Virus record (IMG/VR): IMGVR_UViG_3300044636_000973
Span: 1-49,583 of that record
Strand: one strand, 5' to 3'
Origin: a virus
DNA: 49,583 nt
Below the pieces are notes generated by a model, which was given only the letters and a program-made list of their open reading frames with translations, was not told the DNA's origin and searched no databases. The position numbers and the translations under genes were made by a program. Positions 1,569 to 49,583 of the stretch are shown here, piece after piece (within the stretch, counting starts at the first letter, position 1; each line of letters starts with the position of its first letter).

Positions 1569-1698
1569 CGGACAGGCTCTCCTTGCTCCTAGTTTTCCGC
1601 GGGCTGGGGGGTGGTGGGGACGCCGGAGCGGGGGTACTGCGGCCTGTGACCGCGGCGGCTTCTTGGGCGCGTAGGCGCCGGAAGGTCATCATGCCCAT
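1501..1698 (-). CDS. Small basic protein, uncertain
   Basis: 65 codons starting ATGGGCATGATG just below the terminator at 1719-1743. The protein opens MGMMTFRRLRAQEAAA and then has a Pro-rich linker and a basic RKTRSK stretch, a composition I associate with short cyanophage proteins between capsid genes. It overlaps the first 68 bases of the fibre gene in another frame, and the late box of the fibre gene lies inside it. There is only a weak GAG-type ribosome site. It may be a chance ORF. Confidence 0.35.
   Translation of the reverse strand: MGMMTFRRLRAQEAAAVTGRSTPAPASPPPPSPRKTRSKESLSDAASTDPQAHQGHPADSGRARR
1588..1598 (-). promoter_or_regulatory. Late box a (fibre gene)
   Basis: Minus strand GGAAAACTAGG, a perfect match to the recurrent late box; 19 nt to the ATG at 1568, shorter than the usual 23. 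Confidence 0.7.
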
Positions 1699-4105: not shown

Positions 4106-4116
4106 CCTAGTTTGCC
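4106..4116 (-). promoter_or_regulatory. Late box b (scaffold-capsid unit)
   Basis: Minus strand GGCAAACTAGG followed by AGTGTACC; 21 nt to the GTG at 4084. Confidence 0.75.
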
Positions 4117-6612: not shown

Positions 6613-6623
6613 CCTAGTTTTCC
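6613..6623 (-). promoter_or_regulatory. Late box c (portal unit)
   Basis: Minus strand GGAAAACTAGG, then GTAGTACC; exactly 23 nt to the GTG at 6589. Confidence 0.8.
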
Positions 6624-9072: not shown

Positions 9073-9282
9073 ATGCGCCCCATCCTCTGCGCCTGCCTAA
9101 CCACCCTGCTATGGGCCCTAGTGGCCTTGACGCTCCCCCTGCTCGTGCTGGACTGCGCCACGCTCTCACGAGATCAGCGGATCCGACGCCTGGCTGCCTA
9201 TGGGTGGCCGCAACGGAAGATCGCGAGCCACCTAGGCGTAACACGCTACCGTGTCCGCGCCACGCTTGCAGCGGCAGCCTGA
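9073..9282 (+). CDS. Membrane-anchored helix-turn-helix protein
   Basis: 69 residues. Residues about 3-24 form a hydrophobic segment (LCACLTTLLWALVALTLPLL). Residues about 32-66 match a resolvase/transposase-type helix-turn-helix: RDQRIRRLAAYGWPQRKIA followed by SHLGVTRYRVRATL. A membrane anchor fused to a DNA-binding motif in so short a protein is unusual; it could tether DNA or act as a membrane-linked regulator. Start chosen at the ATG after CGCTCCCCC; earlier in-frame starts overlap the previous gene. Confidence 0.55.
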   Translation: MRPILCACLTTLLWALVALTLPLLVLDCATLSRDQRIRRLAAYGWPQRKIASHLGVTRYRVRATLAAAA

Positions 9283-9669: not shown

Positions 9670-9680
9670 CCTAGGTTGCC
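9670..9680 (-). promoter_or_regulatory. Late box d (small terminase)
   Basis: Minus strand GGCAACCTAGG; exactly 23 nt to the ATG at 9646. It overlaps the candidate -35 (TTGCCA, 9676-9681) of the plus-strand early promoter, so the two could compete. Confidence 0.7.
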
Positions 9681-30780: not shown

Positions 30781-31519
30781 CACACCGATGGATCCGCTGT
30801 TTCGGGTGGATCTTATTACGGCTACGCCGAATCCGCAGCAGTGCATTTATGCGGCTATGCACCAAGATTATAGCGAGGGTTATGTCTACGACGATCGGGC
30901 GAATTGGCCTGATGAGACTCGTGCTGGGGAGATTTGTGTGCAGCGGTTGCTGGCGGGCGATAGGGGGCATTACGGGCCGCTGGAGCACCCGCAGATCACA
31001 CTCAACGTGGGGTGGTTCCCTCATTCGGTGATGCAGCAGGCGCGAACGCACCGTGTCGGTGTGAGCTTCGACGTGCAGTCGATGCGCTATACGGGCGAGC
31101 GCATCTGCCGCGCCGCCAATGGAGACCTCGATCTGGAAGAAGTGTTCTACCTGCGCCCAGCCGGAGACTACACCGACCGTAGTGGTACGAGTTACACCTA
31201 CACCGACATACAGCGTAAGGAAGACATACTGTTCTGCTGTAAGGACGCCGCCATTAAGTACCTTTACTGGACACGTATCTACGGCTACGCTGAAGAACAC
31301 GCCCGCGGAATGTTACCGTTCGACTACAGGCAGCATTTTGTGGTGAGCTTCAGTTTGCGTGCCATGCTGCACTTCCTGGATCTGCGGGCTAAGGCGGATG
31401 CGCAGCTGGAGATCCGGCAGCTCTGCGATTTGATGTGGCCGCATCTTGAGGCGTGGGCGCCGGAGATCGCGGCTTGGTATAAGAAGACTCGACTCACTCG
31501 CGCACGACTCGCACCATGA
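30773..31519 (+). CDS. thyX: Flavin-dependent thymidylate synthase ThyX
   Basis: 248 residues. ThyX signature RTHRVGVSFDVQSMRY (91-106), matching RHRxxSxNxxSxRY with small changes; GHYGPLEHPQITL (about 65-77) and FRQH-like YRQHFVVSFSLRAMLHFLDLR near the C-terminus. Makes dTMP from dUMP with methylene-folate and FAD, complementing dCTP deaminase. The gene is followed by the sigma gene with a 4-nt ATGA overlap. Confidence 0.93.
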   Translation: MTDTPMDPLFRVDLITATPNPQQCIYAAMHQDYSEGYVYDDRANWPDETRAGEICVQRLLAGDRGHYGPLEHPQITLNVGWFPHSVMQQARTHRVGVSFDVQSMRYTGERICRAANGDLDLEEVFYLRPAGDYTDRSGTSYTYTDIQRKEDILFCCKDAAIKYLYWTRIYGYAEEHARGMLPFDYRQHFVVSFSLRAMLHFLDLRAKADAQLEIRQLCDLMWPHLEAWAPEIAAWYKKTRLTRARLAP

Positions 31520-32451
31520 AGACGCTGACAACCGGCGAAAGCACCTCGCACGCCTACCTCAACGAGATCGGGCGGGTGCCGCTGCTGACTCCCGACCAGG
31601 AGATCGACCTCGGGAGGAAGGTGCGCAGAGCACAGGAACTCAAGGCGATGGAGCGGGAACTGACGCCGCAGGAGCGGCGGGAGGTGGCGCTTGGGGAGCG
31701 GGCGGAGCGCAAGTTTGTGCGCAGCAACCTGCGGCTCGTGGTGTCCTGCGCCAAGCGCTACAGCCGCGTCACCAAGAGCATGGACCTGATGGATCTGGTG
31801 CAGGAGGGCAACATTGGCCTCATCACGGCGGTCCACCGCTACGACCCCTCGATGGGGTATAAGTTCTCGACCTATGCCTATTGGTGGATCCGGCAGGGCA
31901 TCACACGCGCCATCATCAAGAAGGATCGATCGGTGCATATGCCCGGGAAGATCGGAGATATGGCGGCGAACTGGGGCGCTAGAACGCAGCGGTTGCGGAT
32001 GGAGCTGGGCAGGGCGCCTACAACTGCTGAGCTGGCGGAGGAGTTCGGTGTGACTCCGCAGGATGTGTTGCTCTACTTGGAGCGGGGACAGCCGCCGGTG
32101 TCGCTCGACTTGGTTGTGCGGGAGGGCGATGGGACCTCCATCGTCAACACGCTCACGGATGACGTGGAGGGCGAGGGGCCGCTGGACAACATGGTTCAGG
32201 AGGAGAGGATTGGCCTGATCATGCAGGCAGTGGTGAGATTGCCTGAGCGCGATCGGGACATCGTGAACAGGAGGCTAGGGCTTGACGGGTACACGGCGCA
32301 GAATTGGTCGGATATCGGGAAGGCCCATGGCGTCAGCCGGCAGCGGGTTTTGCAGGTCTACACGAAGGCTACGAATCGACTGCGGCTTTACATGAGTCGC
32401 ATAGAGCAGGAGTACGATCGTGCAGAGCTGCCAACGCTTCCAACTGGGTGA
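31516..32451 (+). CDS. Group 2-type sigma-70 factor
   Basis: 311 residues. Region 1.2 (about 11-36), region 2 with DLVQEGNIGL (93-102) and YWWIRQGITRAI (122-133), region 3 (about 155-200), region 4 (about 235-290). Region 2.4 keeps the Gln and Thr that contact the -10 element. Region 4.2 reads VSRQRVLQVYTKA where host factors have VSRERVRQIExxA, so -35 recognition may differ. Resembles cyanobacterial non-essential group 2 sigmas. It should redirect host RNA polymerase, probably to middle genes. Coupled to thyX by ATGA overlap. Confidence 0.92.
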   Translation: MKTLTTGESTSHAYLNEIGRVPLLTPDQEIDLGRKVRRAQELKAMERELTPQERREVALGERAERKFVRSNLRLVVSCAKRYSRVTKSMDLMDLVQEGNIGLITAVHRYDPSMGYKFSTYAYWWIRQGITRAIIKKDRSVHMPGKIGDMAANWGARTQRLRMELGRAPTTAELAEEFGVTPQDVLLYLERGQPPVSLDLVVREGDGTSIVNTLTDDVEGEGPLDNMVQEERIGLIMQAVVRLPERDRDIVNRRLGLDGYTAQNWSDIGKAHGVSRQRVLQVYTKATNRLRLYMSRIEQEYDRAELPTLPTG

Positions 32452-34300: not shown

Positions 34301-34311
34301 CCTAGTTTTCC
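34301..34311 (-). promoter_or_regulatory. Late box e (lysis unit)
   Basis: Minus strand GGAAAACTAGG; 16 nt to GTG 34284, or 22 nt to the in-frame GTG two codons later. Confidence 0.75.
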
Positions 34312-34799: not shown

Positions 34800-34810
34800 C
34801 CTAGTTTTCC
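34800..34810 (-). promoter_or_regulatory. Late box f
   Basis: Minus strand GGAAAACTAGG, 23 nt to GTG 34776. The TAG in the box (34801-34803) is the stop codon of the frameshifted tail chaperone. Confidence 0.8.
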
Positions 34811-37837: not shown

Positions 37838-37848
37838 CCTAGGTTACC
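37838..37848 (-). promoter_or_regulatory. Late box g
   Basis: Minus strand GGTAACCTAGG (two differences from consensus), 23 nt to GTG 37814. Confidence 0.65.
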
Positions 37849-44782: not shown

Positions 44783-44793
44783 CCTAGTTTTCC
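44783..44793 (-). promoter_or_regulatory. Late box h (tape measure), divergent pair
   Basis: Minus strand GGAAAACTAGG, 23 nt to GTG 44759; only 8 bp from the plus-strand box at 44802. Confidence 0.8.
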
Positions 44794-44801
44794 GGCGGGG
44801 T

Positions 44802-44812
44802 GGGAAACTAGG
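44802..44812 (+). promoter_or_regulatory. Late box i (plus-strand islet)
   Basis: Plus strand GGGAAACTAGG then AGTACGACC; 23 nt to ATG 44836. Shows that the box is directional and follows the gene strand. Confidence 0.8.
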
Positions 44813-44835: not shown

Positions 44836-45225
44836 ATGTCGGCGTTGCAGGCTCTGGAGAACTCGACGCTGACCTTTGTGGTTCCGGCGGCGGGGACCTC
44901 GGTGGATCCCGATACCGGGAACGTGGTGGCCAACACGGAGACGGTCGAGTGTGCGGCGTACCTGAAGGCGGAGAGCGTGGCGGAGGCGACGTACCCCGGG
45001 GTGAACGTGGTAAGCACCTTGTACGAGGGCTACATCACGTCGGGGGCGCTCGACTCACGGGTTGTGGTGGGAAGTAGTGGGGAGGTGGAGTTTGCGGGGG
45101 CCGGTCCGGTGGAGTGCGAGGTCCTGGAGGCGCGGCTGCCGTACGGGACGGCCGGGCTGATGGGGGAGGTGCTCACCGGGGTGCTCGGTAGCAAGGTGAG
45201 ACTCGTGAGTCGCACCCAGAGCTGA
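44836..45225 (+). CDS. Head-tail or tail completion-type protein
   Basis: 129 residues, beta-rich (SALQALENSTLTFVVPAAG; VECEVLEARLPYG). One of two genes on the opposite strand to the rest of the tail block. Context (next to a gp10-like protein, near major tail protein) suggests a connector component. Ends TGATG with the next start. Confidence 0.5.
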   Translation: MSALQALENSTLTFVVPAAGTSVDPDTGNVVANTETVECAAYLKAESVAEATYPGVNVVSTLYEGYITSGALDSRVVVGSSGEVEFAGAGPVECEVLEARLPYGTAGLMGEVLTGVLGSKVRLVSRTQS

Positions 45226-45731
45226 TGGCGCGGACGAGGCTGGTGATCAAAGAGTGGAACGCGGCGGCGCTGGTGCAGCGTTCCACGCGGATCCTTGGGG
45301 ACTACGCGCCGATCATCGCGGAGGAAGCGCGAACGCAGATCAAGACGGTCAAGTGGGTGTGGCCCAATGCGACGCTGCGGTTTCAGAGCCTGTTCATGCG
45401 CGGCCAGACAGTGCAGACATCCCGGGGGCCGCGGGTGCTGATCCCGAAGGGCGAGCGTGACATTGTGGACACCGGAAGGCTGCTGGCATCACAGCAACCG
45501 CCGCAGGTTGCCAATGGGAGGCTAACCATCGCGTGGACAGCGCCGTATGCGATGGAGGTGCTGCGGGGGTCGTACCCTGACGCCTACTCCAACCCGCTTT
45601 CGCGGAGGGGCACACCAGCGTCCAACAAAGAACGGCCCCGAAACTGGATCGGGGCCGCTCTGGAGGCGCAACCACCGCTGCCGTTCTTTGTGCAGCGGTG
45701 GAGGCAGTTGGCGGCGGAGCAGGCGCCTTAG
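45225..45731 (+). CDS. Tail completion (HK97 gp10-like) protein
   Basis: 168 residues. RSTRILGDYAPIIAEEARTQIK, then IVDTGRLLASQQPPQV and PYAMEVLRGSYP resemble gp10-family minor tail proteins that join head and tail. The end of the gene meets the major tail gene with a 4-nt convergent overlap. Confidence 0.65.
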   Translation: MARTRLVIKEWNAAALVQRSTRILGDYAPIIAEEARTQIKTVKWVWPNATLRFQSLFMRGQTVQTSRGPRVLIPKGERDIVDTGRLLASQQPPQVANGRLTIAWTAPYAMEVLRGSYPDAYSNPLSRRGTPASNKERPRNWIGAALEAQPPLPFFVQRWRQLAAEQAP

Positions 45732-46489
45732 GCGACGGTGGCCACGGTGAAGACCGGGACCACATCGGCGCCCGCTCCACCCACGTCGCCGAGGGCGACG
45801 GTGAGGGTGTCGCCGACTTTGAAGTTGCTGCCGCCGGAAACGACGGTGGGGGCTGCGGTGACGGTGCCACCGGCGGCGACGACGATGCTGGCGGTGAGGC
45901 CCTTGCCGGAGCCGACGCCGGGGGCTGGGCTGACCGGGATCAGGGCGACGTTGCTGTAGGTGGCAGCGGTGAGGCCGGAGCCGGCGCTGGTGACGGTCAA
46001 GGTGGCGGCGGCTTTACCCTGACTGTAGAAGTCGTACTTGCCGTAGCCGTTGAGGGTGAAGCTCACCTTGGCGATGGTGCCGGCGGTGATGTCCTCGGAG
46101 AAGTCGCTGACCTGAGCGAGGCCGGAGTGGACTTCGGGGTTGCTGCCCGAGCCATCGGTGACTGGGGTTTCGCGGTACCACTCAAGGAGGACGCCGCTGG
46201 CGGCTTGAAGGGAGGCGATTTTGAGGATCTCATAGCCAGCGTCGCTGACATCGAGGTTCAACGAGCAGGGGATGCTGTAGTTCTGGCTCGTGATTAGGTT
46301 GTTCTGGAAGCCGAGCTCGGAGTCGTAGTCGAGGACAGAGGTGGATTCGCTAGTGCCCCGGATGCCGGTGTTGTCCAGCGACAGGATGCGGGTCATCCCG
46401 GCGGACGTGGTGGGGATGGCGCTGGCGCTGGTGCCGAGTTTGACGAAGGTCTTGTAGCCCAGGGCTGCAAAAAATCTGCCGGTGGCCAT
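45728..46489 (-). CDS. Major tail protein
   Basis: 253 residues. Opens MATGRFFAALGYKTFVKLG, followed by ITSQNYSIPCSLNLDVSDAGYEILKIA and VSFTLNGYGKYDFYSQG, typical of siphophage tail-tube proteins. The C-terminal ~80 residues form an Ig-like Gly/Ser/Thr/Val-rich domain. Late box 23 nt upstream. Located upstream of tape measure, separated by the plus-strand islet. Confidence 0.8.
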   Translation of the reverse strand: MATGRFFAALGYKTFVKLGTSASAIPTTSAGMTRILSLDNTGIRGTSESTSVLDYDSELGFQNNLITSQNYSIPCSLNLDVSDAGYEILKIASLQAASGVLLEWYRETPVTDGSGSNPEVHSGLAQVSDFSEDITAGTIAKVSFTLNGYGKYDFYSQGKAAATLTVTSAGSGLTAATYSNVALIPVSPAPGVGSGKGLTASIVVAAGGTVTAAPTVVSGGSNFKVGDTLTVALGDVGGAGADVVPVFTVATVA

Positions 46490-46512: not shown

Positions 46513-46523
46513 CCTAGTTTGCC
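46513..46523 (-). promoter_or_regulatory. Late box j (major tail protein)
   Basis: Minus strand GGCAAACTAGG, 23 nt to ATG 46489. The TAG at 46514-46516 is the stop of the mini sigma gene. Confidence 0.8.
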
Positions 46524-47059
46524 CCTATCAGCTCGGGGGACTCCAGCTCGCTGAGTTCGAGTACGTCCCATGGCGTGGGGCGGGGGCAGATGTGGTCGCG
46601 GAAGCCGCGGATGTCGTGGTCGAGCGACTGCACGGAGAAGATGGCGAGTTTGAGGGCCTCGGGGGTGGTGCCGAGTTCCTCGCATACGAAGTCGGGGGAG
46701 AGGCCGGCGCGGAGCATGTAGCGGGCGCGGAGGCCGAGCGATCGCACAGAGGCGGGGGCCTTGACGGACCAGTTCTGATCGCGGATGAAGTGGCGGACTT
46801 CGCCGACGCTGAAGACGCCTAATAGGGTAGAGAATGTGCCCTTGTCGGGGTTCCACGCCCGGCAGGTTTTGATGAAGGCGACGTTGATGCAGCTATAGAT
46901 GTCCTCGGCGCGGACGCCCTTGTACTTGCGGCAGAGTTTGCGGCCCATGTGGTTCACGAGGCCGCCGTGTTCGCGGTAGAGACGTGCCACCCGGCGCTGT
47001 TCCTCGCGGTCGAGCGGGGTGGCGAGGTAGCCGCGGGGTTGGGTCTTCTTGGTGCTCAT
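46514..47059 (-). CDS. Mini sigma factor lacking region 4 (gp55-like layout)
   Basis: 181 residues. About 23-100 match sigma region 2: GLVNHMGRKLCRKYKGVRAED, then WNPDKGTFSTLLGVFSVGEVRHFIRD, as in SigF/SigB-type factors (compare FSTYAVPxIxGEIxxFLRD). About 103-142 look like a region 3 helix-turn-helix (SPDFVCEELGTTPEALKLA). No region 4 follows; the tail is 40 acidic/Pro-rich residues. T4 gp55, the late sigma, is similarly short and also lacks region 4 and -35 recognition. Sits amid connector and tail genes and has a late-box variant upstream. Likely late promoter factor. Confidence 0.78.
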   Translation of the reverse strand: MSTKKTQPRGYLATPLDREEQRRVARLYREHGGLVNHMGRKLCRKYKGVRAEDIYSCINVAFIKTCRAWNPDKGTFSTLLGVFSVGEVRHFIRDQNWSVKAPASVRSLGLRARYMLRAGLSPDFVCEELGTTPEALKLAIFSVQSLDHDIRGFRDHICPRPTPWDVLELSELESPELIGAN

Positions 47060-47080
47060 GCGAGCAGCCTAACGACTACC

Positions 47081-47091
47081 CGCAGTTTTCC
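47081..47091 (-). promoter_or_regulatory. Late box l variant (mini sigma gene)
   Basis: Minus strand GGAAAACTGCG then GGTAGTCG; the CTAGG half is changed to CTGCG. 21 nt to ATG 47059. Could allow weak autoregulation. Confidence 0.5.
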
Positions 47092-47104: not shown

Positions 47105-47674
47105 TTAGCTGCGCACCCGGTTGATGATGCGGCTCGTACCACCCGGAATGGTGCTGGTGGTCAGGCAGCCAAGGGTTGTGGCTAGGTGGGGGAGGACTGT
47201 GAGTGGGTTGACGATGGCTTGGGCGCTGGCGGATACGTCCGACCGGAAGGTGAGTTCGAGAACATCGGCTTTGAGTTTGGAGAGAGTGCGGTTGGGGATT
47301 CCGGGGATGAGGGAGGTGCTGCTGGTTGGGGGTGTGAGGAGAAGACCGGGAGTGGTGAGGAGGGCGTTGGCGAGGTCGAAGGTGGCGTAGAGGATTGGGG
47401 TGGGGATGATGTTGTCGGCGTAGTCCGTGCCATCGCAAGAGGCGTCGGTGCGGGGCCAGTCGAGGGCCTGGGTGGCGGTGGTTTTGGAGCCGATCCATCC
47501 GAGGGTGTCGAGGCCGCGGGTGGCGGTGATGAGGGCGCGGGTTTTGGAGTCGGAGGAGGCGGTTGTCCACGCCAGGGTGCCGAGCATGGCCTCGGTGAGG
47601 GTGTCGGCGGCGGCCACCGTGATGTAGCTGTTGGCGCTGGCGCCGCCGATTGTGGCGTCGATGGTGGCGGGCAT
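47105..47674 (-). CDS. Head-tail connector (DnaT-like domain) protein
   Basis: 189 residues. SYITVAAADTLTEAMLG, then SKTRALITATRGLDTLGWIGSKT and ALDWPRT match the phage connector-like family often labelled DnaT-like. C-terminal helix with RSDVSASAQAIVNP. It likely sits between portal and tail. Starts 4 nt after the upstream gene stop. Confidence 0.7.
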   Translation of the reverse strand: MPATIDATIGGASANSYITVAAADTLTEAMLGTLAWTTASSDSKTRALITATRGLDTLGWIGSKTTATQALDWPRTDASCDGTDYADNIIPTPILYATFDLANALLTTPGLLLTPPTSSTSLIPGIPNRTLSKLKADVLELTFRSDVSASAQAIVNPLTVLPHLATTLGCLTTSTIPGGTSRIINRVRS

Positions 47675-48067: not shown

Positions 48068-48078
48068 CCTAGTTTTCC
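48068..48078 (-). promoter_or_regulatory. Late box k
   Basis: Minus strand GGAAAACTAGG, 23 nt to ATG 48044. TAG 48069-48071 is the stop of the preceding gene (residues EN then stop). Confidence 0.8.
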
Positions 48079-49030: not shown

Positions 49031-49583
49031 TGACCCAGCCCGCAGACAGGTCGAATGGCTGGCCTGCTTCAATCTGGGCCTTCAGCTCAGCAGCGCGCTC
49101 GATGTTGGCGTAGCCGGCTGCAACCAGCGACTGATGCCGCTGCAGCAGATCCACCATAGTGGCGGTTGCCGTGCCCTCTTGATCCCTGCGGATCGCCTCC
49201 GCCAGCAGCACGGCCAGCATCGGATCCTCGTTCGACGGATACAGCCGGGCGTTGGCCTGCAGCCGAGCGGCCTCCACCTGGTTCAGCAGTTCCTCCACGG
49301 GCCGGCGCTTCACCTCCAGCGTCTCCTCCCACGTCCCCACCGGGCCGCCAGCCTTTGGGTTGGAGTAGTCCACGGGGCCCCAGTTGGCCTCTTCAAAGAA
49401 GATTGCCGGGTCGTACTCCCTGACCTGAGGCTGGCCCTTCAAGTAGAACCGAATCTGGGTGCCGTCGTAGGGCAAGCCAAACAAGTTGGGCCAGCGCGCG
49501 CCGCCCGGATTGGTCGCCTCTTCACCCCTTACAGGGACGAACAGATCCACGCTCTGCCCTTCACGAGCGCCCGGCTCGTCGTA
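49014..49583 (-). CDS. Phage structural-region protein, C-terminal part (runs off right edge)
   Basis: About 190 codons, open to the right edge, where it begins YDEPGAREGQSVDLFVPVRG. The N-terminal 15 residues are missing but are present in the left-edge copy (1-285). The C-terminal half is helical: EELLNQVEAARLQANARLYP and MLAVLLAEAIRRDQEG, ending GWVNELPA. Upstream neighbour across the join would be the fibre gene. No family recognised. Confidence 0.75.
   Translation of the reverse strand, partial: YDEPGAREGQSVDLFVPVRGEEATNPGGARWPNLFGLPYDGTQIRFYLKGQPQVREYDPAIFFEEANWGPVDYSNPKAGGPVGTWEETLEVKRRPVEELLNQVEAARLQANARLYPSNEDPMLAVLLAEAIRRDQEGTATATMVDLLQRHQSLVAAGYANIERAAELKAQIEAGQPFDLSAGWVNELPA
49344..49583. 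repeat. Right copy of 240-bp imperfect terminal repeat
   Basis: Gap-free match to 1-240, with the terminal 99 bases identical. Confidence 0.85.

Follow-up and report, generated by a model that had tools for sequence, protein, structure and literature searches.

Locus and predicted protein

The window, the whole stretch of DNA that was analysed, is 49,583 nucleotides of the IMG/VR virus record IMGVR_UViG_3300044636_000973. Judged by its terminase, whose best matches are from Synechococcus and Prochlorococcus siphoviruses (38-42%), the phage is a cyanophage-like siphovirus. A near-identical stretch is found at both window ends (1 to ~240 and ~49343 to 49583), in frame within one gene; the two may be copies from a tandem duplication, or mark the place where a circular genome closes.

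On the minus strand, positions 46514-47059 form an open reading frame of 181 codons with an ATG start, and the plus strand of this stretch has stops. The initial annotation had described a small sigma factor of 181 residues at this place without giving a strand. The gene is real, the sigma region 2 residues then quoted (KGTFSTLLGVFSVGEVRHFIRD) are present in the minus-strand translation, and its place among tail and connector genes is borne out by its immediate neighbours. The late module around it is on the minus strand throughout, apart from an inverted pair of presumed neck genes. The genes and the leader discussed below are:

47105..47674, minus strand: head-tail adaptor Ad1 gene, directly upstream of the mini-sigma gene
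47060..47091, minus strand: mini-sigma leader, GGMAWACTGCG and then GYTAGSCTG-N5-ATG, conserved in most of the family
46514..47059, minus strand: mini-sigma gene, 181 aa (ORF call, Pfam, NCBIfam, profiles, AlphaFold model)
45728..46489, minus strand: major tail protein gene (PHROG tail protein)
44836..45731, plus strand: inverted pair of presumed neck genes, 129 and 168 aa, named by position and without a family match
31516..32451, plus strand: full-length sigma factor, 311 aa, with Pfam regions 1.2, 2, 3 and 4, in a block with polA and thyX

In the leader, GYTAGSCTG stands exactly 5 nt from the ATG and the gap between the two elements varies. By way of suggestion, GYTAGSCTG-N5-ATG may be a separate TAnnnT-type promoter for the first expression of the mini-sigma.

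The mini-sigma protein comprises sigma region 2 (residues ~22-97), a region 3-like part (~101-145) and the motif CPRPTPWDVLE (158-168), with no region 4. For Pfam Sigma70_r2 there is a match at residues 27-97 with E=2.1e-5, its 24.6 bits lying just above the cut-off of 24. Among curated families NCBIfam TIGR02980 (SigB/F/G) is the best; it aligns with residues 31-115 at 4.9e-9, a score far below the family cut-off. Profile searches match the protein to Staphylococcus aureus SigB, starting in region 2 and running on into region 3. Region 3 itself was aligned by profiles and by predicted structure, without a Pfam region 3 match.

Domains were read from an AlphaFold model built with 17 relatives in the alignment (mean pLDDT 72), which was preferred to a weak first model (12 sequences, pLDDT 64). 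Confidence is high over residues 21-90 and 101-140 (pLDDT ~81-95), where the model consists of the region 2 helices and a three-helix region 3-like unit; a low-confidence tail follows. Whole-chain rmsd values are high because the domain arrangement is not fixed, and therefore only the identities of the matches and the region 2 fit were used as structural evidence. The top PDB matches listed are sigma factors or RNA polymerase-sigma complexes, and the region 2 part of the earlier, 12-sequence model fits the solved domain 8b3z at 2.1 A over 79 columns. Both the Pfam score and the predicted fold thus uphold the original region 2 assignment, for which a structural comparison had been proposed. The "region 3-like helix" of the same annotation was right about the likeness to region 3 but not about a single helix: the part in question is a helix-turn-helix unit, which can be aligned with region 3 of group 3 sigma factors.

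The reported lack of region 4 also stands. No Pfam region 4 match was found in the mini-sigma at E up to 1, and in relatives whose whole sequence could be read the protein stops soon after CPRPTPWDVLE or a closely similar peptide, without region 4. This C-terminal tail may represent a truncated region 3.2 followed by the very start of region 4.1, or else a gp55-like binding peptide; by eye, TPWDVLEASEE resembles SPSLDFLYEAND of T4 gp55.

Relatives of the mini-sigma are encoded in 28 other viral contigs (58-100% identity), with the same neighbour genes wherever the contig extends far enough. In the most diverged of them Pfam scores are sub-threshold or absent. A pattern scan of bacterial genomes found none, and phage records gave weak partial matches and nothing better. 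The ratios of computed distances to three close relatives correspond to a dN/dS of ~0.08-0.10, and the gene is under purifying selection. In several relatives a gene with cysteine-rich repeats lies between the mini-sigma and tail genes (L012 8513-9278, L007 1408-2020, L020 2498-3258 and others). This inserted gene was considered as a region 4 partner and rejected, as its cysteine-rich repeats look like a homing endonuclease.

The late box

Inspection by eye first revealed the sequence AAACTAGG, which forms an inverted repeat in the spacer separating the tape measure gene from the inverted neck genes. It occurs 12 times in the window against 0.41 expected from shuffles, and is among the top 8-mers in an unbiased ranking. 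Sites from five genomes give the late box consensus GG[AC]AA[AC][CT]TAGG-NN-WA-N-A (GGMAAMYTAGG-NN-WANA), for which the search pattern dictated the core and left the flanks free. A short A-rich element lies downstream of the box at fixed spacing. No second conserved, -35-like block was found in the 40 nt upstream of the box in the five-genome site alignment. The 11-base box has 11 sites in the window (0.6 expected):

48068..48078, minus strand: GGAAAACTAGG, 23 nt before a 121-aa gene; heads the unit of 121-aa gene, Ad1 and mini-sigma
46513..46523, minus strand: GGCAAACTAGG, 23 nt before the major tail protein start
44802..44812, plus strand: GGGAAACTAGG, 23 nt before the inverted neck gene
44783..44793, minus strand: GGAAAACTAGG, 23 nt before the tape measure gene, back to back with the preceding box
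37838..37848, minus strand: GGTAACCTAGG, 23 nt before a 144-aa gene
34800..34810, minus strand: GGAAAACTAGG, 23 nt before a 150-aa gene
34301..34311, minus strand: GGAAAACTAGG, 16 nt before a 69-aa ORF beside an endolysin-like gene
9670..9680, minus strand: GGCAACCTAGG, 23 nt before a 114-aa gene
6613..6623, minus strand: GGAAAACTAGG, 23 nt before the portal gene
4106..4116, minus strand: GGCAAACTAGG, 21 nt before a scaffold-like gene
1588..1598, minus strand: GGAAAACTAGG, 19 nt before a 426-aa gene

Ten of the 11 sites are oriented along the late (minus) strand, and the sole plus-strand box stands before the one late gene pair that is inverted. Each of the 11 lies 16-23 nt before a start codon, 8 of them at exactly 23 nt; ten stand 19-23 nt before listed late genes and the eleventh before the 69-codon ORF. 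The 114-aa gene, which has no Pfam match, is perhaps the small terminase, by position. The stop codon of the mini-sigma gene falls inside the box of the next gene (46513-46523). The neck gene inversion, with its back-to-back boxes at 44783-44812, is kept in most relatives.

That a sigma factor without region 4 and a compact late box travel together is supported in outline. Zero copies of GGNAANYTAGG were found in nine contigs that encode a full-length sigma (35-42% identity to that of the window) and have no mini-sigma match, several of these contigs being fragments or read to 40 kb. The cultured phages KBS-S-2A and S-CBS1 have none; in P-SS2 and in S-CRES1 a single copy was seen over 50 kb. 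In the two contigs with the most diverged mini-sigma (G023 and G047, 58-60% identity) the box has shifted to GGMAANYTMGS, in forms such as GGAAACCTCGG and GGCAACTTAGG, at the portal, scaffold, Ad1, tail and tape measure genes. A box changed at many sites at once points to a changed reader. The mini-sigma is a natural candidate for this reader, and not the only one, since other genes there have diverged too, among them the full-length sigma. The box and the mini-sigma could also share a lineage without a direct link.

Candidate readers of the late box

The mini-sigma is quite probably a phage late sigma factor reduced to region 2, region 3 and a conserved tail, which directs core RNA polymerase to compact late promoters. 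In the proposed mechanism it would most likely join the host core enzyme through region 2 and, by analogy with T4 late promoters, bring it to GGMAAMYTAGG-NN-WANA sites late in infection. The contact with a -35 element is normally made by region 4; here the box would be read by regions 2 and 3 alone, without such a contact. Another protein may help at the box because, if WANA is the -10 element, the box extends upstream past the known contacts of region 3. A late promoter of the kind that the mini-sigma would read stands upstream of its own gene, so that the protein, once made, would amplify itself. The self-reinforcing late transcription proposed in the initial annotation fits the map: the nearest upstream box (48068-48078) heads the unit that contains the mini-sigma, and in several relatives a box stands directly before Ad1, both of which make such feedback plausible.

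The full-length sigma, encoded in the early block, probably serves an earlier phase. It occurs together with the mini-sigma in the window and six other contigs. In the genome as a whole there are two region 2 domains and a single convincing region 4: in a genome-wide Sigma70_r4 search the full-length sigma was the one clear match, and a further match at 9199-9267 scored 14 bits, below threshold. A split sigma of the SigO/RsoA type, with region 4 on a separate protein, was sought with a region 4 profile in all frames and rejected, the hits being the full-length sigma and weak, unrelated helix-turn-helix proteins. No clamp family and no sliding clamp gene was found in the genome.

The presence of a full-length sigma in the same genomes raises the alternative that it, or a host sigma, reads the box, while the mini-sigma for example competes for core and so shuts off host or early transcription, for which region 2 alone could suffice by occupying core. 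Yet the box is missing from the nine contigs that have a related full-length sigma and no detected mini-sigma, and it lacks the -35 partner expected for a factor bearing region 4. It also changes with the mini-sigma in G023 and G047, though the full-length sigma diverged there too. This reading is considered unlikely. A conserved block of 17 bases is long for regions 2 and 3 alone, and the genome encodes small helix-turn-helix proteins; the box might accordingly be an operator for a separate activator or repressor, with the mini-sigma working alongside that protein (in the style of gp33 and the clamp) or with a hidden region 4 (SigO/RsoA). Such an arrangement is improbable too: a second convincing region 4 is missing from the genome, weak region 4 scores come from small proteins that differ from relative to relative and are unrelated to one another, and the fixed A-rich element adjoins the box downstream, as in a promoter.

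The narrow spacing to start codons could instead mark the box as a translation signal in the mRNA. The box is, however, too far upstream for a usual ribosome site, and its distance to the tail gene start varies from 22 to 32 nt across orthologues. It is also absent before tightly packed internal genes (major capsid, Ad1, head morphogenesis), and promoters therefore fit better than ribosome sites; a translation signal is very improbable. Recognition of the box as a late promoter by the mini-sigma is the preferred reading.

Comparison with known sigma factors

The standard example of a sigma factor that functions without region 4 is T4 gp55, which requires a clamp and a co-activator. The T4 protein has 185 aa, made up of sigma region 2, a helical unit next to it and a short hydrophobic-acidic tail, and T4 late promoters consist of a -10-type box alone, with no need for a -35 element or region 4 (PMC2988020, PMC7892883). 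The mini-sigma is alike in its small size, in the order of region 2, helical unit and short tail, and in having no region 4. The late box, whose use as a promoter is predicted, resembles T4 late promoters in being compact and without upstream conservation. The two systems differ in that gp55 works with the phage clamp and gp33 and the genome here has no detected clamp, in the sequence of the late box, which is unrelated to that of T4, and in the position of the mini-sigma gene inside the tail block. Descent from gp55, to which the initial annotation had likened the protein, finds no support in profile comparison (hhalign probability 0.2%); cyanosiphovirus group 3 sigma factors of the SigF/B type match instead. 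The mini-sigma thus does not belong to the gp55 family by sequence, and by analogy probably works like gp55.

Among those tested, the nearest described relatives by profile are P-SS2 gp003 (213 aa; NC_013021, 2091-2732) and S-CRES1 gp20 (244 aa; OQ587939, 12308-13042), both annotated as group 3/SigF-like sigma factors, which match the mini-sigma profile from region 2 to region 3 (96-97%). Both are small sigma factors in phages that also have another sigma, and region 2 is the only Pfam sigma domain that scores in them, with no Pfam region 4. They adjoin the large terminase, and unlike the mini-sigma they are longer, have another C-terminus and occupy another gene position. No shared late box was found in P-SS2 or S-CRES1. 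The class of sigma factors without region 4 may be wider than the mini-sigma lineage. Passages of the P-SS2 description assign gp003 to group 3, with a specific regulon as its expected target, and already record two sigma factors in one cyanosiphovirus (PMC2784084).

Members of the SigB/SigF/SigG family (TIGR02980), the best curated match, have region 4. KBS-S-2A, S-CBS1 and related cyanosiphoviruses encode a related full-length sigma (~40% identity), and in KBS-S-2A the terminase is related as well, but these phages have no annotated or matched mini-sigma and no GGNAANYTAGG box.

It is somewhat more probable than the opposite that the mini-sigma represents a second, independently evolved solution of the gp55 kind, in which a group 3 sigma factor lost region 4, moved the late regulon of a small siphophage to compact promoters that cover both the -10 and the extended -10 region, changes together with its box across the lineage and is expressed from its own late promoter. 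Sigma and box have diverged in natural pairs, and with these pairs the recognition of promoters by a sigma factor that makes no -35 contact can be tested directly; they could also yield an orthogonal promoter set for cyanobacteria. Set beside T4, a much smaller phage appears to do the job of gp55 with one protein derived from the SigF type and a well-defined box, and with no clamp gene found.
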